The position numbers and the translations under genes are program-made. Source: a bacterium (lineage in GTDB: Bacteria; Bacillota_I; Bacilli_A; RFN20; UBA1709). Taken from it: 15,647 nucleotides of DNA. Every line of letters starts with the position of its first letter. Within the stretch, counting starts at the first letter, position 1. Location of the stretch: NCBI GenBank assembly GCA_012511355.1, contig JAAZGG010000179.1, positions 1-15,647 on the forward strand. Direction: 5' to 3'. Under the pieces are notes generated by a model, which worked only from the letters and a program-made list of their open reading frames with translations, ran no database searches and had not been told where the DNA came from. Of this stretch, positions 1,201 to 13,045 are shown in pieces.

Positions 1201-1458
1201 ATGAACAAAGAAAGGCAGAGAAAACCATTTGTTTGGAAAATTGATTTAAAGAAAAAACCAAACACGAGAAGATTTGTCTGGTTTTGTATTTTTGCATTTC
1301 TTACTATTCTTGATCTAATCTTTGCTTTAATTATCGTAGCCAAAGGGACCTGGCAAGCCGGAAACACCTTTTTAATTGCCTTTCCTATCGTTTGTTTAAT
1401 CATAAACTTTTTTATTATTCGTGCTATTCTTTTAACTAGTCAGCCAGAAGATATTTAG
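1201..1458 (+). CDS. Small two-helix membrane protein, unknown function
   Basis: This is an 85-residue protein that I do not recognise. It has a very basic N-terminus (MNKERQRKPF and KKKPNTRR), two hydrophobic segments at about 25-47 and 56-78 separated by a short GTWQAGN loop, and a short acidic end (SQPEDI). The positive-inside rule puts the N-terminus in the cytoplasm and predicts a helical hairpin. I start it at 1201: a frame-compatible ATG at 1147 lies within the promoter, while 1201 has a G-rich ribosome binding site. Its last 23 bases overlap tail-to-tail with the ApbE-like gene on the other strand, and no terminator is visible between them. A good promoter and ribosome binding site make this a probable real gene; nothing in the context assigns a role. 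Confidence 0.7.
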   Translation: MNKERQRKPFVWKIDLKKKPNTRRFVWFCIFAFLTILDLIFALIIVAKGTWQAGNTFLIAFPIVCLIINFFIIRAILLTSQPEDI

Positions 1459-2713
1459 GATTATAACCAGAATCTTCTAAAACGGTAAACTCACCTTTAT
1501 AAATATAAATATCTTTATCATCCCCCTGTAAAGTATAAGCTAAAGACAATTGAGGATTTTCGTCCTCAATTTTTTTAACCTGATTATTTATACCATCAAT
1601 TGTATTAAACCCATAAATTGTTAAGTTAAAAAAACGTAACTGTACAATATCAAAATCGGTAGCAAAAAGATTGACAGTATTTATAATATTGTTAATCTTC
1701 CCACTTTTAACATCAATTTTTAAGTGTCGATAATAGTTCTTCTCCTCGTGATTAATTACTCGATAATAATCTTCTTGCTTAACACTATAAACTCTGCTCC
1801 GTGATAAAAGTTTGTACTTTTCACTACTAACAGACATTACTGGGCTTTCATAAGTTTGACTATCCAATTTATTGGAAATGGCATAGAAACAAGTTGAATC
1901 CGTCCCTAAATTGATAACTAATCCATCTGCGGTTTCAACAAAGCCCTTAGTATAGCCTTGCTCTTTAAGATTATTGCACAGCAATTTTATTTTGAACGCT
2001 TCATTTAAACTATTAAAATCCAAAATAGCACAATCTAGGCCTTCGGTTTCATAAAAATTCTTGAAGGCTAATGAAGTATTAAAAGTCACGCTTTTATTTT
2101 CATCATCAAAAAGCAAGGAAAAATTTGTTAAATCATCAACATAACTTGCTATTTCCTCTAAAAACGCCGCTTCTTCTAGATTGATTAGCGGGTCTCTTTC
2201 ATCGTCAGCGGCTAAAAGAATCCCTTCCCAACGATCAATTAGAATATTGGCAAAAAGGTTATAATTTTCTCTTAATAGAGTTAATTCATACGCTTCCTTC
2301 AACAACGGATATAACAAGGGGTGTAATTCCACCTCTTGTCCGATGTTTTGATTAACTAGAGCTAAGTTTTTATAAACTTCATAAGTATTTTCCGCATCAA
2401 CTAAAATATAGGCTTGTTTTAAGGCTAATGAATAAACATTTTTTAAATTTTTTAAAGCTATTTTAATTTCACTACTCTCACCATCTAAATAATATTCAAA
2501 CTTAACTCCGGCCCCATAAAAGGGTGCTTCTTCATCTTCTTTTTATTCTATTTTATAATAACCCGGCTTCTTTTCGGAGCAGGAATTAATAGCGCGAGCA
2601 AAACTTACAACAGCAACCGTTAAGGCAATCACAAAAAAGATAGCACGAATAATTAATCCTTTTCGTGAATACTTTTGAACCTCTATTTCTTGATGCTCAT
2701 CATTAATCGGCAT
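1436..2713 (-). pseudogene. ApbE-like (FAD:protein FMN transferase family) extracytoplasmic protein, broken by an in-frame TAA at codon 57
   Basis: One reading frame runs from ATG 2713 (GGAG about nine bases upstream) to TAG 1438-1436, but codon 57 (2545-2543) is TAA. The 56 residues before it hold a basic start, a membrane segment (LIIRAIFFVIALTVAVV) and a possible lipobox-like INSC. After the stop the same frame continues for 368 residues resembling ApbE: ALVNQNIGQEVELHPLLYPL matches the family's 'iN...G..vevs.el..ll' segment, then NYNLFANILIDRWEGIL, the central INLGTD, and NYYRHLKIDVKSGKI in place of 'yhHiidPkTGyP'. ApbE enzymes attach FMN to Thr of extracytoplasmic flavoproteins. Several signature residues are missing here: the AKG loop reads NEAF, and the DxxST metal site near the end reads DIVQL. 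No good restart site follows the TAA; GTG 2332 has a poorly placed AAGAG. It is either a nonsense-mutated, degenerate paralogue or a sequencing error. The family assignment is by eye. Confidence 0.6.
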
Positions 2714-2728
2714 TTCTGCTCACTCCGT

Positions 2729-2758
2729 AAAAATAACTAATCACGAGATTAGTTATTT
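2729..2758 (-). terminator. Terminator of the opp operon
   Basis: Arms 2731-2742 and 2747-2758 are perfect 12-bp complements around the four-base loop ACGA. Read on the minus strand the hairpin is followed by a T-run. It includes the oppF stop codon. The stem is AT-rich, so termination may be partial and could let some transcripts enter the ApbE-like gene 40 bases downstream, for which I see no clear promoter. Confidence 0.65.
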
Positions 2759-3706
2759 AGCCTCTTTTCTAAAACGCCAAGCTTTGTATCTAGCAATTTC
2801 TTCTTCATTACCATAGACAAAGTGTCCGCCACCAATATCAACTAGTTCCGGTTTAGAAGAACTATAATCATGAAGACTGGGATCATAGACAAAGAGTTTT
2901 TTGCTCTTTTCAATGATGGGATCAGGAACCGGAATCGCAGAGATTAAAGATCTAGTATAGGGGTGCAAAGGATATTTGAAAAGTTCTTCGGTTTCGGCAA
3001 TTTCCATTAATTTACCCTTATAGATAACGATAATACGATCACTGATAAAACGAACGATAGAAAGATCGTGGGCGATAAATAAATAGGTTAAATCTCTTTC
3101 AATTTGGAATTTCCTTAATAAATTTAAAACTTGGGCTCTAATAGAAACATCCAAAGCGGATATCGGTTCATCAGCCACGATAAACTCGGGTTCCATAACA
3201 ATAGATCTAGCAATACCAATTCTTTGTCTTTGACCACCCGAAAATTCGTGAGGATATCTTGTTAAATGCTCAGGCAACAAGCCAACTTCTCTAATAATGT
3301 TTTCAATTTTTTCAATTCTTTCTTTTTCATCCGTAAAAAGGCGGAAGTTATAAAGACCTTCAGAAATAATGTATTCAATTGTCGCCCGCTCATTTAAAGA
3401 GGCGGCAGGATCTTGGAAAATCATCTGTAATTTACGAATTACTTCACGGTCTTTTCCTTTAGATAATCTACCCGAAATGCGTTCACCTTTATAAAGAATT
3501 TCGCCCGCGGCTAATGGATTGATTCGGACGATGGCTCGTCCAATGGTGGTCTTACCCGAACCTGATTCTCCAACTAACGCTAAGGTTTCCCCTTTATAAA
3601 TATCAAAAGAAACATTATCAATGGCCTTAAAGGCATTTTTCCCACTGCCAAAAACAATATCAATGTTTTTAACCTGTAAAACTATTTCTCTTTTTTCTTG
3701 TTCCAT
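2753..3706 (-). CDS. oppF: Oligopeptide ABC importer ATP-binding protein OppF
   Basis: This 317-residue cytoplasmic ATPase subunit is the second nucleotide-binding domain of the peptide importer. Motifs are complete: Walker [10 protein letters not shown] (46-54), Q-loop Gln in MIFQDP (Q98), signature FSGGQRQR (155-162), Walker B FIVADEP (175-181), D-loop SALD and H-loop LFIAHD (H213). The Opp/Dpp-type C-terminal extension follows ([17 protein letters not shown], from about 247), but without the Cys cluster that binds an iron-sulfur centre in some relatives. Length is normal and there is no large insertion, unlike its partner OppD. Its ATG shares one base with the oppD stop codon (TAATG), which points to translational coupling. 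It is the last gene of the operon, and a terminator hairpin covers its stop codon. The substrate (oligopeptide rather than dipeptide) is inferred from operon layout and similarity. Confidence 0.92.
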
Positions 3707-5517
3707 TATAAGGCCTCCTCATCTTCAAAACCGGCGTGAACTTTGAGCATTTTTTCATGGAGATTTTGAATATTTTCGGGTGCTTCAACTTTCGGAGCCC
3801 GTGGATCTAAAAGCCAAGTTTTAGCAAAGTGCCCCTCACTAACTTCCATCATCGGAGCTTCTTTAACTAAATCTATGGCCAGCGCATATTGACTTCTCAA
3901 GGCAAAAGCATCACCAACAATTTTGTTATAAAGTGATGGTGGGGTTCCAGGAATTGAATAAAGTTCTTTACCGCGTTCCGATAATTGGGGAAGCGAGGAA
4001 AGAAGCGCCCAGGTATAGGGGTGTTTAGGATTATAGAAAATGTCTTCTACTGAACCAATTTCTACAATTTGTCCCGCATATAAAACCGCGACTCTTTCCG
4101 CTACGTTAGCTACAACGCCCAAGTCATGGGTAATATAAACAGTTGTAAAGCCAAACTTTTTCTGCAAGTCCTTAATCAAGCGAATAATTTGTGCTTGAAT
4201 GGTGACATCAAGTGCGGTCGTTGGTTCGTCACAAATCAAAATCTTCGGTTGACAAGATAGTGCAATCGCAATAACTATTCTCTGACGCATACCGCCTGAA
4301 TATTGGAAAGGATAATCATTGAAGCGGCCTTTTGGATCAGGAATGCCCACATCTTGCATAATTTCTAAAGCTCGTTGTTTTGCCTCTGAATAACCACACT
4401 TTTGATGCTTGAGAATAATGGTAATAATTTGCTTACCAATAGGGATAACTGGGTTTAGTGAAGTCATGGGGTCTTGGAATATGGTAGCAATCCTACGACC
4501 TCTGATTCTTTGCCAGTCTTTGGCGTATTTAATCTTGGCACAGTCAATGATGGCATAGCCATGCAGAGTCTTACCATCCTCACTACAACCTTGATATTGC
4601 ACCCTAAAAGTCGCGTTCTCAAAAATGCGATTAACTCTTTTTTCTTTACTAAAATCTGTGCCCTTGGTTAAAGCCTCTTTGAAGGCTTTAGAAAGTTTAA
4701 AATAAAAGCGAATTTTTGTATAAATAGGATAACGGCCAATAGATAAAACAACCTCTTTGGCCCAAATATCATTACGTTTAATAATGGTATCACTCAACTT
4801 ATAAGGATTGCCATTATCTTCCAAGTCATCGCCAGCGATTTTTAAGCGACGGGCTTCTTCAAGTTCGTGTAATCTTTGTTGATGTTCAGCCTTTAACTGC
4901 GTATTGGCCTCATAATCAGCCTTGCGTTTAGCAACTTTTTCATCGCGTTCTTTTTCTAATTCCTGCTGTTGAGCAATTAGTTCTTTAAAACGTTCCTGCG
5001 ATTCTTCTAACTCTAAAGCATCGTGTTCATCCCTTCGCGATAGGGTATCCATATAATTCCTTAAATCAATCAATTCGTCACTGATTTCTTTATTGGTTTC
5101 AGCATATTTTTCAAGTTCTTCCGCACTTAAACTTTGAGCCTGTAAAATTTCCTCTTTGAGTTTTTCAATCGCCTTATACTCAGCGCCTCCTCGTTCATAG
5201 GTTGAATAAAGATTGATTTTCTTTAATATTTTTTGATAAATAAGGGTATTTATTTTATCCATCTCTACCGAGGTTTTAGAAATTTCATCATCTTTAAAAA
5301 TGATAGTCCCATGGCTGATAAAGCCATTGGAATCCAGCATACCGGCAAAGGTTTTGGTTAAAACCGATTTCCCTGAACCTGACTCACCAACAATGGCTAA
5401 AGATTCATTTTCATATACCTGTAAAGTCACGTCACGAATCGCTGTTAGAATACGACCCCGAACATTGAACTTGACATCTACGTGTCTGAGGTTAAGTAAA
5501 ACTTTCTTTTCTTCCAT
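3706..5517 (-). CDS. oppD: Oligopeptide ABC importer ATP-binding protein OppD with a large insertion
   Basis: This is the first ATPase subunit of the importer. The ABC motifs are intact but widely split; residues are numbered from the GTG at 5526, so subtract 3 from the ATG: Walker A GESGSGKS (47-54), then about 250 extra residues, then Q-loop TIFQDP (Q351), signature YSGGMRQR (409-416), Walker B ILICDEP (429-435) and H-loop ITHD (H467). The Opp-type tail [15 protein letters not shown] follows. Typical OppD is about 330-360 residues, and this one is 603. The first part of the insertion (about 115-230) is rich in Glu, Lys and Gln with heptad-like spacing, probably a coiled coil; the second part (about 240-335) looks globular. 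I prefer ATG 5517 over GTG 5526, because the AGGGGG overlapping the oppC stop codon lies eight bases before the ATG but directly abuts the GTG. It is translationally coupled to oppF. Confidence 0.9.
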
Positions 5518-5529
5518 TTTACGCACCCC

Positions 5530-6549
5530 CTACATATGTGTCCTTGGATCAGAAGCATCAGCAAGATTCTGACCTACGACATACAAGATAATCGTTACAA
5601 TCGAAGCGATGGCAACAGGCGGCCAAAAGGCCCACGGGAACATGATAAAGGCCGTTTGGGCTTCTTGAATCATCCGCCCTAAGGAAGGCACCGTGGCGCT
5701 TAAACCAATACCAATGTATGATAAGAACACTTCAGCTCCAATGTAAGATGGTAGTTCACTAGCTAATATTGTGACAATAACCGAAGTTAAGAATGGAAGA
5801 ACGTTCTTGGTTACTACCCGAACAATTGGCGTTCCTAAACATTTAGAAGCGAGGTTATATTCTCGGTCACGAATAATAATGACCTGTGTTCTAAAGAAAT
5901 AGGCAATGCCCATCCAGCCTGTCATTGTCATGGCTAGTACAAAAGACCAGAAGCCACTGCCGATGACATAAACTAAGACAGAAACAACTAAAATATAGGG
6001 AACATTGGCGACAATATTATAAATAACCATCATAACGGCATCGAATTTTTTCGAATAACCCCAAACAGCGCCTAAAATAATGCCCACTGTCATGTTGATG
6101 GTTGCACAAACAATAGCTAGTAAAATTGATGTCTGTGTTGAAGCCCAAATACCATAAAAAATCGAATTGCCTATGGAACCTGTTCCCAAAAGATATTTCA
6201 AAGAAAAACCACCAAACATATTCATCGCCGCTGCTGGACTTTGATTGTAAGAATCTGTTAGATTAACGTTTTCATTTGGATTATAAGGACAAAACAATGG
6301 GAATATTAATGCCACAAGAATCATTAATATCAAAGAAGATAAAAGGACAATATTAGTTTTTTTCTTAAAGAATACTTTAAATACCGAGCGCCAATAAGAG
6401 TAACGCGGCGCGGTAATTTTTTCTGATTTTATAGTGTCGCTATCAATGAAATAAAATAAATCATCTTCTTTGACAACCCTAGGTTTTCTACTTCTTTTTA
6501 CCACCTTAACTTCTTTTGGTGTATCCTTTGTTTTTTTGTCTTTTAGCAT
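5530..6549 (-). CDS. oppC: Oligopeptide ABC importer permease OppC
   Basis: This 339-residue inner-membrane permease pairs with OppB to form the peptide channel. It has a charged cytoplasmic start rich in Lys, a first membrane segment (TNIVLLSSLILMILVALIF), an extracytoplasmic loop with CPYNPNENVNL, and then the five-helix permease core. The cytoplasmic coupling loop that contacts the ATPases reads YNLASKCLGTPIVRVVTKNV, in the place of the EAA motif, and the end carries ASDPRTHM, close to the 'DPR' ending common in this family. I start it at ATG 6549, one base after the oppB stop: AAAGGAGGT lies at ideal distance inside the last oppB codons. The longer frame from 6582 would overlap oppB and lacks such a site. 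Unlike OppB, it has no unusual extracellular domain. The tight spacing indicates one transcript with oppB and oppD. Confidence 0.9.
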   Translation of the reverse strand: MLKDKKTKDTPKEVKVVKRSRKPRVVKEDDLFYFIDSDTIKSEKITAPRYSYWRSVFKVFFKKKTNIVLLSSLILMILVALIFPLFCPYNPNENVNLTDSYNQSPAAAMNMFGGFSLKYLLGTGSIGNSIFYGIWASTQTSILLAIVCATINMTVGIILGAVWGYSKKFDAVMMVIYNIVANVPYILVVSVLVYVIGSGFWSFVLAMTMTGWMGIAYFFRTQVIIIRDREYNLASKCLGTPIVRVVTKNVLPFLTSVIVTILASELPSYIGAEVFLSYIGIGLSATVPSLGRMIQEAQTAFIMFPWAFWPPVAIASIVTIILYVVGQNLADASDPRTHM

Positions 6550-6550
6550 A

Positions 6551-8152
6551 CTAACGACCTCCTTTCTCGGTGAAAGAAACACGAGGATCGTATTTTGCTA
6601 ACAAAAGATCACCTAAAATTAAGGCCACTATTGAAAGGAAAGTGTAGAACACCGTTACCGCGACAATTAAGCCATTATCATGGAATGTGATAGCATCGGT
6701 TAATATTCGACCAATACCTGGCACACCATAAACCGACTCGGTAATAATGGCTCCTGTTAAACAAAATAAAATACTGGCTGGAATACCATGCACGAGATAA
6801 ATCATCGCGTTTTTAGAAATGTGTTTAGAGAAAATTTCTCTTTCACTCAAGCCTTCAGCCCTAGCAAATTTAACATAATCACTATTCATCTGGTCAATCA
6901 TATAACGACGCATCCACTTCATCAATCCACCGATAGATGGTAAGGCCAAAGAGATAGTCGGTAAAATATACGCCAGAATCGGCACCTGTGCGTTAGCAAA
7001 TTTATAAGGTAATTTAAATAAGGTTGTGCCAATTGTAGAGAAAATGAAGATATATGCTAGCGATGGAACGGCCATAATAAAGATAATATACATCATCCCT
7101 AATTTATCAACCAATTTATCTTTCTTTAGAGCCATAAAGATTCCAATTGGAAGGCCAAAGATATAGGCAACAATGGTAGCAATAATACCAATAACAAAGG
7201 AATTGCCAATTCTTGTCAGTCCGCCTATCCTTGCGCTTGGTTGAGTATAATTATCGTTATATTTTCCTTCTTCAAACTCTGAAAAAATCGGAGAATAAGT
7301 AACTGTGTGGAAATCATAAGCATTATTACTTTTAATTCCCGTTCCTATTTGAGCAGGATATTCTTGATCGCGATAAATGTAATCACCTGTCGCTTTTCCC
7401 ATAACGCCTTCGACAATCGGAGAACCTTCATATTGAGTGGAAGAAACACCTAAGCCAAAATGAACTATATTCTGGTGAATATAAGGAAAACTATCATCAA
7501 AATAAATTAGATATTTATGAGTTGTCCCTGAGCCGACTAAGGCCGGCATATTGGACATATCGTCCCAAACAACTTTAACATAGCGATCAGTTAAATTAGG
7601 ATCTTTAACATCATTAACTGTTTCAAAAGTTACCATTTGACCAAGGAAATTAAACAAGCGAATAAAAACGCTCTTTTGATGAACGGCAATTAAACGAGCC
7701 GTGCCTCCTTTAGCAACTCGTCCACCACTATATTCAACCCTTGGCATATAAACTATTTCATACTTTTTGGATCTATATTCAGCCAAAAACTGCTTGACAT
7801 AATCATTATTGATATCATCAACGTCTTTATAAACGGCGGCATTTATTGAGCCTAATGCTTGGTCATATTTGGCCTTTATGGTTGGATTATCAGCATAATC
7901 CTCGCCATATTCAGCTTTAAACTTTGTGAGTAAAAATGCATTATACTCTTCATAATCTAGATAATCATATTTTGCCCATTTATTGTACTCATACATTGTT
8001 CTATCATTAGCTGAGCGCTTGTTCCAAGCATCGTCGTTTTGGAAAATAACTTTTCTGTCGATCAAAGAGTAAACCAAAATCATCACGATACAAACAACCG
8101 CCAACAATGAGAAAATAGAGAATAAGATTCTTTTAAATAAGTACTTCTTCAT
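6551..8152 (-). CDS. oppB: Oligopeptide ABC importer permease OppB with a large extracellular domain
   Basis: At 533 residues this permease is about 200 longer than a usual OppB (around 310). The first membrane segment (about 8-30) is followed by a hydrophilic, Tyr- and Asp-rich region up to about residue 312, predicted to lie outside the cell, where normal OppB has a loop of 60-80 residues. The canonical core begins at about 314 (RIGNSFVIGIIATIVAYIFG) and contains the EAA coupling loop DYVKFARAEGLSEREIFSKH (425-444) and the GVPGIG turn (476-481). Near the end of the extra region, FDDSFPYIHQNI and FGLGVS may correspond to the usual 'GDLGxS' entry segment. The start ATG 8152 has AAGGAG nine bases upstream, displayed in a hairpin loop. 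A 208-base gap with strong stem-loops separates it from oppA. The extra domain could dock the unusual binding protein; that is inference. Confidence 0.9.
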   Translation of the reverse strand: MKKYLFKRILFSIFSLLAVVCIVMILVYSLIDRKVIFQNDDAWNKRSANDRTMYEYNKWAKYDYLDYEEYNAFLLTKFKAEYGEDYADNPTIKAKYDQALGSINAAVYKDVDDINNDYVKQFLAEYRSKKYEIVYMPRVEYSGGRVAKGGTARLIAVHQKSVFIRLFNFLGQMVTFETVNDVKDPNLTDRYVKVVWDDMSNMPALVGSGTTHKYLIYFDDSFPYIHQNIVHFGLGVSSTQYEGSPIVEGVMGKATGDYIYRDQEYPAQIGTGIKSNNAYDFHTVTYSPIFSEFEEGKYNDNYTQPSARIGGLTRIGNSFVIGIIATIVAYIFGLPIGIFMALKKDKLVDKLGMMYIIFIMAVPSLAYIFIFSTIGTTLFKLPYKFANAQVPILAYILPTISLALPSIGGLMKWMRRYMIDQMNSDYVKFARAEGLSEREIFSKHISKNAMIYLVHGIPASILFCLTGAIITESVYGVPGIGRILTDAITFHDNGLIVAVTVFYTFLSIVALILGDLLLAKYDPRVSFTEKGGR

Positions 8153-8360: not shown

Positions 8361-10550
8361 TTAGAATAGACCGATGACTTTTGTCATGTAGCCTTCGCCG
8401 TTACCTCTGAAGGTATCAAGGTAGGTTGAAGGATCGCCATAGTCTGGTCCCCAACCAGAACCGTAGAAGATATCAAAGTTGCCAGAAGCACCATCTGGAG
8501 CTCTATAACCACAAGCATAGAAATCATCAGTTGTTGCGGTTTCAACTAGGTTAACTTGAACCTTATCGGCACCTAAAGCACCTTCAATTAGTTGCTTGAA
8601 TGACTGAGCTTGAGCGGTATTACCTGAACTCGGAGAGTAGTAAACGACATCTAGTTGAATTGGATAGGAAACGGTTGTTCCTAATTCTTGCATAGCATCG
8701 TACATTCTTGCTTTGGCCACATCTAAGTTGTACCAACCATCTTCCTTATCAGCAACCTGAATATGACTACCTAGATCTTCTAGATATTGTTGAACCATTT
8801 CGCCATAAGCAGTTCCGGCTGCAAAAGTATGAGCAAAGAATTTGTTGGTTGCGTCAGCCGCGGCGACAACTTCGCCTTCTAATCTAACGAACTCTGGGTG
8901 AACATACATATTTCTTAAGTTGGTCTTAGCTAATTCCGCTCCTCTGGTTACGCCATTCCAAGTTGTTCTATCCCAAGCATAGGCAATAGCCTTACGGAAG
9001 TTCTTATTCAATAAAGCTTTGGCGGTATCTACCTTGGCTTGACCATCCTTAGGTGATTTAGCATTGCCATTAGTGAGTTCAAACGTTCCTCTAGCAACGT
9101 TTAGACCACCAAAGAAGGATACAGAAGTGGTGTCAGAGATATAGACATAGCTTCCTTCGCTTGTAATATCATAGGTACCATCGGCTTTCTTGGTGCCGAA
9201 GAATCCGTCGGTTTGGGCTTTTTCAATTGTTCCAAGTGATTTGCTCAAACCAGTTCCAGCATATGTACCATCAACTACAGATTGGTATGTTTGTAGTGGG
9301 GTTTGTCCATCGTCATAAACCCAGGTTACAGAGTCCATGCGACGATCAGCTTCATCATAATATGGTTTTTCAGCTGTTCCGGTCTTTTCAATTTTAATCT
9401 CGGACTTGTCTGTTAACTTTGTTAAACGATAAGCACCGTTGTAAACGTTGCTGGTAACATCGGTAGCAAGACCGAATTTGTACGTAGCGGTGTCACGATT
9501 TGCATATTTGTCAACACCATAGACTCCACCAACCGCTTCGAAGTATTGTTTACAAATTGGCATGAAGCAAGAATAGGTTAACATTGTTGGGAAGTAAGAA
9601 GTCTCACGCTCTAGTTCAATGACTAATTGATGAGCATTGGCTCCAACTTTATAACCGACGTTGGCAAATGTTGGACTATCACCCTTACCATCTGTTTCTA
9701 GGTATTCGGAAACGCCTTTAACAACGCCTTCAACTAACCATTCTAGACCCGCCTTGGCATCAAGCATGTGCTGGAAGCCAGCTACAAAGTCTTCAGCTTT
9801 GACCTGTGAATAGACTTCACCAGTTGATTTGTACCAATAGGCATCTTCTCTGAGATTGAAAGTATACTTCTTACCACCATCAGAAACTACCCAATCTTTG
9901 GCAATCGCTGGTTTTAATTGGCTTAGACCATTGTACTCAACTAGACCATCAACACAGTTAACTAGAATTTCACTGTCAGTTTGATGTGAAGTATTGACGA
10001 TGTCAATTGTCACTGGGCCTGTACTGAAGGTAAGTTTGTAATCAGTAGCTAGTGTGTGTCCCCAGCCTGTCAACATGGTTGCAGGATCATAATCAGCGGG
10101 ATCACCACTATCAACTGCGGCTTGCCATGCAGCAAGTAACTGATTTCTTTGAGCATGCGTAATAAAACTTGTTTTTCCTGAGCCCTTTGTGGCGACCATG
10201 CTTTTGAAGCGATCTGTGTCACTACCCCATTGAACATAAGGAACTGTTCTGGGAGCAACTCTTGAAATCGTATAGGCGCCGCCATCCGTTGTTGTTGGAA
10301 CAAAAACAGCAGACTCTAGTAATAAGGCTTCAGCTTGAGCATAGAGAACAAATTTTTTGTCGACTGTATCTGCCTGAAGTGCTGCATCAAGCTTGGCTTC
10401 ATACGCGCCTAAAGCTTCTGTGTATGTAGTGCCTTCATCAGCGCGTGTATATGGAACCTCTGCGGAAGAGCTTGGTTTCTTCCCACAGGAAGCGAGTATA
10501 ACAGCTAAAGCTGATAAAAGCACTAAATAACCAAATTTAGATTTTTTCAT
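8361..10550 (-). CDS. oppA: Oligopeptide-binding lipoprotein OppA, apparently circularly permuted
   Basis: This 729-residue family-5 solute-binding protein is tethered outside the membrane and delivers peptides to OppBC. It has a lipoprotein signal with lipobox LASC (Cys22). Residues about 175-725 follow the normal order of the family: SEILVNCVDGLVEYNGLSQL, AIAKDWVVSDGGKKYTFNLR, VKAEDFVAGFQHMLDAK, NFRKAIAYAWDR and DIFYGSGWGPDYGDPSTYLD. The protein then ends at GYMTKVIGLF, about 100 residues early for this family. Those missing last elements seem to be at the front: residues 44-120 read LGAYEAKLDAAL, KKFVLYAQAEALLLESAVFV, GGAYTISRVAP and DRFKSMV, which resemble the usual C-terminal 'YdaLidkA...R..ly..AEalLl..apviPly' segment and its last strands. 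Residues 120-170 would be a linker. The 208 bases after the stop do not encode the missing part. Start ATG 10550 has AAAGGAGGA upstream. Family assignment is firm; the permutation is read by eye. Confidence 0.92.
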   Translation of the reverse strand: MKKSKFGYLVLLSALAVILASCGKKPSSSAEVPYTRADEGTTYTEALGAYEAKLDAALQADTVDKKFVLYAQAEALLLESAVFVPTTTDGGAYTISRVAPRTVPYVQWGSDTDRFKSMVATKGSGKTSFITHAQRNQLLAAWQAAVDSGDPADYDPATMLTGWGHTLATDYKLTFSTGPVTIDIVNTSHQTDSEILVNCVDGLVEYNGLSQLKPAIAKDWVVSDGGKKYTFNLREDAYWYKSTGEVYSQVKAEDFVAGFQHMLDAKAGLEWLVEGVVKGVSEYLETDGKGDSPTFANVGYKVGANAHQLVIELERETSYFPTMLTYSCFMPICKQYFEAVGGVYGVDKYANRDTATYKFGLATDVTSNVYNGAYRLTKLTDKSEIKIEKTGTAEKPYYDEADRRMDSVTWVYDDGQTPLQTYQSVVDGTYAGTGLSKSLGTIEKAQTDGFFGTKKADGTYDITSEGSYVYISDTTSVSFFGGLNVARGTFELTNGNAKSPKDGQAKVDTAKALLNKNFRKAIAYAWDRTTWNGVTRGAELAKTNLRNMYVHPEFVRLEGEVVAAADATNKFFAHTFAAGTAYGEMVQQYLEDLGSHIQVADKEDGWYNLDVAKARMYDAMQELGTTVSYPIQLDVVYYSPSSGNTAQAQSFKQLIEGALGADKVQVNLVETATTDDFYACGYRAPDGASGNFDIFYGSGWGPDYGDPSTYLDTFRGNGEGYMTKVIGLF

Positions 10551-12457: not shown

Positions 12458-13045
12458 TTAATTGAGAATGCGGGTCTCAACCTCTTGACTGGCTTTAATT
12501 AATTTAATCATCGCTTTTATATTACGTAACAATTCTTTTTCTTTAGCAATTATCGTTTCTAAAAAACTCAACATTTTGGCCCCTTCTACAATTAAGATAT
12601 CGTAAACAAAAATATCAAAACCATATTTTTTACTTTGTCTTCTTAATTTATTTGGGATGTTTTCTTCAAAATCTGGATAAACAACATGAGCATCTACTGG
12701 CCGTAAGTGATTGATCCAGGTTTGGAAGTTTTCTAACTCAATTTCAGCAAGGTGTTCGGTATCATCTAAAAACCAATAGAGTTCTTGTTTTAGTTCGTGA
12801 TTTTTTGCGACAATTAGTCTTTCTTTTTCTCGGCGATGCATTTTTACATATGGGTACTCTAAAAGGCGCAAGAACTTGCGAAAAGCGAGCATATATTGAT
12901 CAATATCTTCAAAGGGTATGCTCTTAGTAATAGCTTCTAATTCTTTTTTGTTTCGCTGAAAATCTGAGATTTCAAGTTTGACATTTTCAATGTCTTCTAG
13001 ATACTCTTCGATGTTCAGATCAATCTTTTTTCTTTTATTGGTCAC
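12458..13045 (-). CDS. Uncharacterised helical protein
   Basis: I do not recognise this 195-residue protein. It is highly charged and predicted almost wholly helical, without a signal peptide or membrane segment, so cytoplasmic. Residues 10-45 (LNIEEYLEDIENVKLEISDF and after) and 150-195 (MLSFLETIIAKEKELLRNIK and after) have heptad-like spacing and could form coiled coils; the middle has an aromatic-rich stretch (LRLLEYPYVKMHRREKERL) and a less helical part (LRPVDAHVVYPDFEENIP). The start is GTG 13045, chosen because GGAGG lies seven bases before it and no ATG is suitably placed. It is the first gene of the operon, 15 bases ahead of ispF, with a good promoter upstream at 13092-13064. Context gives no firm role. 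Confidence 0.8.
   Translation of the reverse strand: MTNKRKKIDLNIEEYLEDIENVKLEISDFQRNKKELEAITKSIPFEDIDQYMLAFRKFLRLLEYPYVKMHRREKERLIVAKNHELKQELYWFLDDTEHLAEIELENFQTWINHLRPVDAHVVYPDFEENIPNKLRRQSKKYGFDIFVYDILIVEGAKMLSFLETIIAKEKELLRNIKAMIKLIKASQEVETRILN

Follow-up and report, generated by a model that had tools for sequence, protein, structure and literature searches.

An oligopeptide-binding protein with its C-terminal segment at the N-terminus: a probable natural circular permutant of the Ami/Ali type

The oppA gene in the 15,647-nucleotide stretch of DNA analysed here (the window) lies at 8361..10550 on the minus strand and encodes a 729-aa lipoprotein, and sequence comparison confirms that its product is an OppA of the Ami/Ali type in which the ~100 residues of the C-terminal end are found at the N-terminus. 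The best explanation overall, to which we assign a probability of roughly 0.9 with its inferred packing and tree-based history included, is a naturally circularly permuted peptide receptor of an oppABCDF importer. A circular permutation had been proposed by a sequence-only reading of the window, and it is borne out both by four solved Ami/Ali proteins, to which the blocks match in swapped order, and by the many relatives that share this order.

On the same strand, oppA is followed by the permease genes oppB (6551..8152, minus; 533 aa, with the permease domain confined to aa 333-526) and oppC (5530..6582, minus) and by the ATPase genes oppD (3706..5526, minus; 606 aa) and oppF (2753..3706, minus; homologues are recognised in the operons of relatives), an order that makes up a complete oppABCDF importer. 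The oppA product is the sole SBP_bac_5 match found in the host assembly. Its residues 1-22 (10485..10550, minus) end in the lipobox LASC with Cys22, which we take, by the lipobox rule, to be a lipoprotein signal. The long stretch of OppB ahead of the permease domain, at about aa 30-310, is probably extracytoplasmic. The long insertion of OppD amounts to ~250 aa, and this protein matches a Mycoplasma-type OppD profile (561 aa) almost end to end. Stop-to-stop frames of OppD measure 586-753 aa in 23 permuted operons of the main clade described below and 614 aa in that of the variant L018, and 354-372 aa in seven linear operons outside group 2 (also below) and 373-634 aa in four group-2 operons. 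Two other ORFs of the window, at 1436..2332 (minus, 298 aa) and 12458..13045 (minus, 195 aa), gave zero Pfam matches at 0.001.

Family membership is indicated by the Pfam model SBP_bac_5 (PF00496), which covers the protein in one stretch (aa 212-720, profile positions 2-366 of 368) with 82.4 bits against a curated threshold of 32.4. The sequence-only reading had looked to this model for the segment order as well; the model stops short of the tail, so that it cannot show the order, and an annotation resting on it does not reveal segment order. The order came instead from phmmer and from a profile, A1, built from 16 permuted proteins including that of the window. In the phmmer search against solved structures, aa 171-717 were aligned with AmiA 16-500, which upholds the view that the body behind the front tail runs in normal order, and aa 47-111 were aligned with AmiA 524-590 (i-E 0.045) and aa 46-115 with AliC 519-589 (i-E 1.9e-5). 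The nearest solved homologues are AmiA and AliB/C/D, with E values of 1e-56 to 1e-62, the next match being at 1e-20. Profile A1 gives two stretches in each of AmiA, AliB, AliC and AliD (4/4); on AliB, profile positions 167-694 fall on residues 6-498 (i-E 5.7e-126) and positions 41-150 on residues 508-615 (i-E 1.7e-12), and on AmiA the two order-swapped blocks have i-E values of 5.7e-125 and 9.6e-13.

An independent test used one HMM of the body and one of the tail, both built from 22 linear proteins only. On the window protein, the tail HMM aligned aa 46-145 (envelope 27-148, 65 bits, i-E 3e-20 to 1.6e-19), and the body HMM gave an envelope of aa 166-728. The moved segment alone scored 71 bits against the tail HMM, compared with a maximum of 6.7 in 1000 shuffles among the 881 of 1001 rows listed. 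Per-column conservation of the tail in 108 permuted proteins was correlated with that in 22 linear proteins, the same that built the tail HMM (rho 0.44, p 2e-6), and shifts of 1-12 columns either way lowered rho to at most 0.29. Over the other stretches of the window with at least 12 residues between stops, the next best tail match had an i-E of 7 or more, from which it follows that the 208 bases downstream of oppA are without a tail, as had been claimed. A truncated gene with its tail lying downstream was rejected for the same lack of another tail match in the window. In terms of sequence, both blocks are homologous to their linear counterparts, their order is swapped and the tail is present once; the linear segment order typical of Ami/Ali-type proteins is absent, and the protein is filed as a permuted variant.

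The anatomy of the protein could be described in the terms of pneumococcal AliD, whose numbering is here that of chain 8qlc plus 25 (checked by hand on W498, D501, I603 and N608). In AliD, lobe 1 consists of Domain I (29-63, 191-296 and 583-617) and Domain II (64-190), lobe 2 is Domain III (297-582), and helix alpha19 (622-652), which is characteristic of Ali proteins, packs on lobe 1 (PMC11192437). The moved block begins with the end of Domain III in lobe 2 (aa 46-89; 10284..10415, minus), continues with the end of Domain I in lobe 1 (aa 90-122; 10185..10283, minus) and closes with the Ami/Ali hallmark alpha19 (aa 127-148; 10107..10172, minus). A new linker of ~17 residues (aa 149-165; 10056..10106, minus) joins the old C-terminus to the old N-terminal strand, and the body (aa 166-728; 8367..10055, minus) then runs in the normal order through the start of Domain I, Domain II, Domain I again and Domain III up to the cut. 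The sequence-only reading is amended here in its limits: the front tail does match the C-terminal end of the family, extending over about aa 46-148 rather than 44-120, and a linker does exist, at about aa 149-165 rather than 120-170, since aa 120-148 belong to the tail as alpha19. Likewise, the idea that the tail closes lobe I holds for the Domain I end and alpha19, which belong to lobe 1, while the first ~44 residues of the block end Domain III of lobe 2.

Pneumococcal AmiA, AliB, AliC and AliD share with the window protein the body, the tail, alpha19 and the GWxxD motif for the peptide N-terminus (PMC11192437). They are linear, whereas in the window protein the last ~105-125 residues come first and the chain both starts and ends in lobe 2. 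The motif reads GWGPDY at aa 699-704 (8439..8456, minus), in which W and D correspond to the residues by which AliD grips the N-terminus of its peptide, and G699, W700, P702 and D703 are invariant across the 16 permuted proteins of A1. Residue 728 is aligned with AliD 525 within Domain III, and a cut in this domain of lobe 2 implies that the lipid anchor would hang on lobe 2, having been shifted from Domain I in lobe 1. The AliD ligand contacts I603 and N608 (PMC11192437) fall in the moved block, suggesting that peptide binding presumably requires the block to be in place. Neither contact is conserved in the window protein, where by hand alignment the I603 position is a gap and the N608 position is D113.

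An AlphaFold model of the monomer computed with A1 shows one compact fold, predicted with confidence (mean pLDDT 86.6, pTM 0.86), in agreement with the sequence-only reading in that the front block is not predicted as a separate domain. Over aa 41-150 the ten-residue pLDDT means are 80-95, except for 52 at aa 101-110, and stretches of at least three residues below 50 are found at aa 1-30 and 104-109. The modelled helix 132-148 corresponds to alpha19, and the A1 profile match also runs through this region; the extra helix of the Ami/Ali type is thus present, though not C-terminal. The moved block would presumably pack in its native place, and a two-lobe clamp would close on peptides via the GWxxD motif before handing them over to OppBCDF. 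A domain-swapped oligomer, in which the front tail fills the gap in an adjacent molecule instead of the one in its own chain, could be considered in view of the lobe-swapped dimer in which AliC crystallised (PMC11192437), and swapping might be promoted by the new linker and spacer. The compact monomer model argues against such an arrangement while being compatible with it, and we regard it as quite unlikely. The front block might also be an extra tail-like domain, joined by its linker to a body that is merely a truncated binding protein; this is very improbable, as the block can be matched to the tail over almost its whole length, with the same conserved columns, and none of 179 distinct ORFs of relatives carries a second tail (domain E < 1e-3).

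Relatives were sought in the family (4 genomes), in the order (279 genomes), in 395 genomes drawn from the class and in 297 drawn from the order of the Clostridia record G620, and, among named genome contigs, the best 80 of at least 509 loci were kept. Scoring with the linear-only tail HMM divided the 179 distinct ORFs into 111 permuted, 58 linear (L018, described below, among these) and 10 undecided, and both linear and permuted homologues, whose search had been suggested by the sequence-only reading, were thus found; these relatives were fetched by likeness to a permuted query, A1, L023 or L018, and 111:58 is no estimate of prevalence. The order search alone gave 30 loci, namely 20 permuted, 5 linear including L018, and 5 undecided ones that are cut. 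L018 was scored linear because its tail comes last; besides it, L164 is the only one of the 58 linear ORFs with a tail match ending before profile position 100.

The end of the chain does not look like a truncation, for 105 of the 111 permuted chains stop 0-3 residues after the body model, a count that includes L084, whose reading frame is broken in two and which is represented by the front part, and L091 and L228, which are cut at the 3' end. The linker from tail to body has a median length of 15 residues in the permuted proteins, and the corresponding place is variable in length in linear ones. For 99 of 105 distinct permuted genes, the locus also carries OppB or OppC in the same orientation. 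The permuted OppA frame of L099 (also L157) measures 861 aa and includes an additional N-terminal stretch of ~170 residues. The permuted L235, which lies outside the 179-ORF counts, is a divergent OppA of 642 aa that lacks the GWxxD motif, on a 7-kb contig, and may be decayed or repurposed. Among the best 80 of at least 509 loci, the record labels of the hosts are Bacilli, Erysipelotrichaceae, Lachnospiraceae, Oscillospiraceae and Christensenellaceae, with a few Spirochaetales, Sphaerochaetaceae or Treponemataceae, and a plasmid collection gave zero matches at 1e-20.

These relatives also bear on an assembly or binning artefact, by which the order would have been scrambled in a single draft. 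The host assembly (887 kb) is indeed split into 201 contigs and 66.6% complete. However, the same order recurs in 111 of the 179 ORFs, in another genus of the same family at 47% identity, and, with a full operon, in a copy 55% identical over its length on a contig of 3,260,197 bases, which makes an artefact scarcely credible.

The anchoring of the permuted proteins is varied. A closed 5' end is present in 107 of the 111, and a lipobox-like pattern was found in 87 and was absent in 20 of these; the counts are based on the pattern alone except for three proteins looked at individually, L099 and L124 being stray matches among the 87 and L074, among the 20, having a plausible lipobox by eye. Tat-like signals occur in four permuted proteins (L128, L132, L138 and L159), each also holding a lipobox. 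In L124, and also in L158, a 1379-aa frame carries, by eye, leucine-rich and SLH-like repeats followed by a permuted OppA. The repeats led to the rejection of L124 as a tandem OppA copy, and its locus, with 6 kb downstream included, gave no OppB to OppF match. Collectively, the lipobox, Tat-like lipobox, lipobox-free and SLH-like forms indicate that the permutation is not tied to one anchoring mode, and with about 20 of 107 proteins lacking the lipobox pattern the anchor cannot be its general point.

The number of permutation events was addressed with trees of subsets, namely body trees of 101 of 151 segments (clustered at 72% identity), of 44 hand-picked rows and of 26 hand-picked rows, and an OppB+OppC+OppF tree of 34 of 36 operon loci, from which L238 and L241 were left out because a needed gene is missing. 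In the 44-row tree, the main permuted clade with L018 has a support of 99/95, and its sisters are the linear L019 and L004 (93/86), the latter cut by a contig end such that its tail falls outside the sequence. The permuted L023, L024 and L025, three proteins from draft genomes, cluster instead with the linear L026, L027 and L059 (100/100), and this cluster is referred to as group 2. Body identity between these permuted proteins and the three linear ones is 49-56% and tail identity 48-65%; identity to the five main-clade rows included in the comparison does not exceed 38%. A single clade of all permuted proteins plus L018 was rejected (AU p 0.00035), the AU-test groups having been chosen after viewing the 101-segment tree. 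With added linear relatives, the 26-row tree places group 2 among linear proteins (100/99), beside the linear L219 (99/97). The AU test leaves L023-L025 compatible with one clade or several (p 0.46 and 0.22). OppB, OppC and OppF of three group-2 operons form their own clade (100/100), in which the permuted L257 pairs with the linear L256 (100/99), so that there may have been more than one event inside group 2. From the trees, an independent second permutation is apparent at the same Domain III loop in another Opp lineage. As side observations, the OppB frames of the group-2 operons L237 and L257 have 414 and 420 aa, and the N-termini of L024 and L025 contain four-residue echoes of the body end, which are too short to prove duplication.

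An independent second event would be unnecessary if one ancient permutation had been undone several times, each time restoring the linear order. The segment order can change again, as L018 shows, and such returns would leave linker-like N-termini on linear proteins; the resemblance of the post-tail linker of L023-L025 to the N-terminus of linear relatives (GWISLANAGEN in L023, GFIDLANKNAN in L026 and GYTSLANTNEN in L217) consequently gives no direction. In opposition to this are the linear relatives that surround group 2 in the trees, the linear order of the solved Ami/Ali proteins and the larger number of changes that returns need, the fewest order changes on the trees being four, three of them forced by well-supported branches. 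We consider a history of returns unlikely. Under independent permutations, one event would have founded the large clade, and transfer between Bacilli and Clostridia probably accounts for the spread of that clade. In the OppB+OppC+OppF tree, permuted operons labelled Clostridia/Lachnospiraceae sit in two separate places among operons of the window's class, suggesting at least two transfers of permuted operons between classes; this tree does not separate the early-branching permuted operon L246 from linear ones.

The order has apparently changed once more in L018 (L018:1162-3246; a further record is L239), in which the signal is followed by alpha19, a linker of the permutant type, the body, a spacer rich in Ala, Pro and Glu, and the tail without alpha19. 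A main permuted clade without L018 was rejected by the body (AU p 0.005), and OppB, OppC and OppF, with OppA left out of the data, place L018 inside the permuted clade (100/98, 100/99 and 100/99), with nearest neighbours that vary between trees. On the simplest reading of the sequence, a permuted gene would have been opened a second time, at the junction of the Domain I segment with alpha19. L018 is a single gene from a single draft genome of 74% completeness, present there alone among 26 congeners and absent from the other 25.

As to the route, tandem duplication with subsequent trimming, proposed in the sequence-only reading, is a plausible origin and would be a likely one. Natural circular permutation via duplication and trimming is described for swaposin and for permuted DNA methyltransferases, and intermediates are known for the latter (PMC3320104). 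Both are unrelated to OppA, and, by contrast, a two-tailed intermediate is found in none of the 179 OppA-type ORFs.

Among importer receptors, TpMglB-2 (Tp0684) of Treponema pallidum (Type Ic, Cluster Bc) serves an ABC importer as its binding protein and is naturally permuted, with relatives reported in treponemes and gut Gram-positives (PMC4990184). It belongs to the sugar-binding proteins of cluster B, whereas SBP_bac_5 is the one significant match of the window protein in Pfam. The available passages of its account do not speak of convergent or repeated permutation (PMC4990184). A permuted sugar receptor is thus already known, and a family-5 counterpart was not found in the open-licence literature, among the matches listed. 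For the solved family-5 proteins of enteric bacteria, OppA and DppA, which are taken as linear, the body is homologous to that of the window protein with a weaker match. Salmonella OppA is described as having no alpha19 (PMC11192437).

The two orders of this receptor can be regarded as a natural experiment on how much rearrangement a protein chain tolerates with its family hallmarks retained. Since both occur in related genomes, they offer natural pairs for the study of folding, of anchoring to one lobe or the other (lobe 1 or lobe 2) and of the hand-over to the permease. The permuted topology of TpMglB-2 has been raised as a possible adaptation to anchoring (PMC4990184), and the mixed anchoring among permuted OppA proteins bears on that possibility. 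It appears fairly probable that family-5 receptors are topologically labile, with the same loop cut independently in two Opp lineages, the permuted form spread across classes together with its operon, and one descendant permuted again at another point. If this is true, the linear, permuted and re-permuted forms would constitute a natural series of one receptor.
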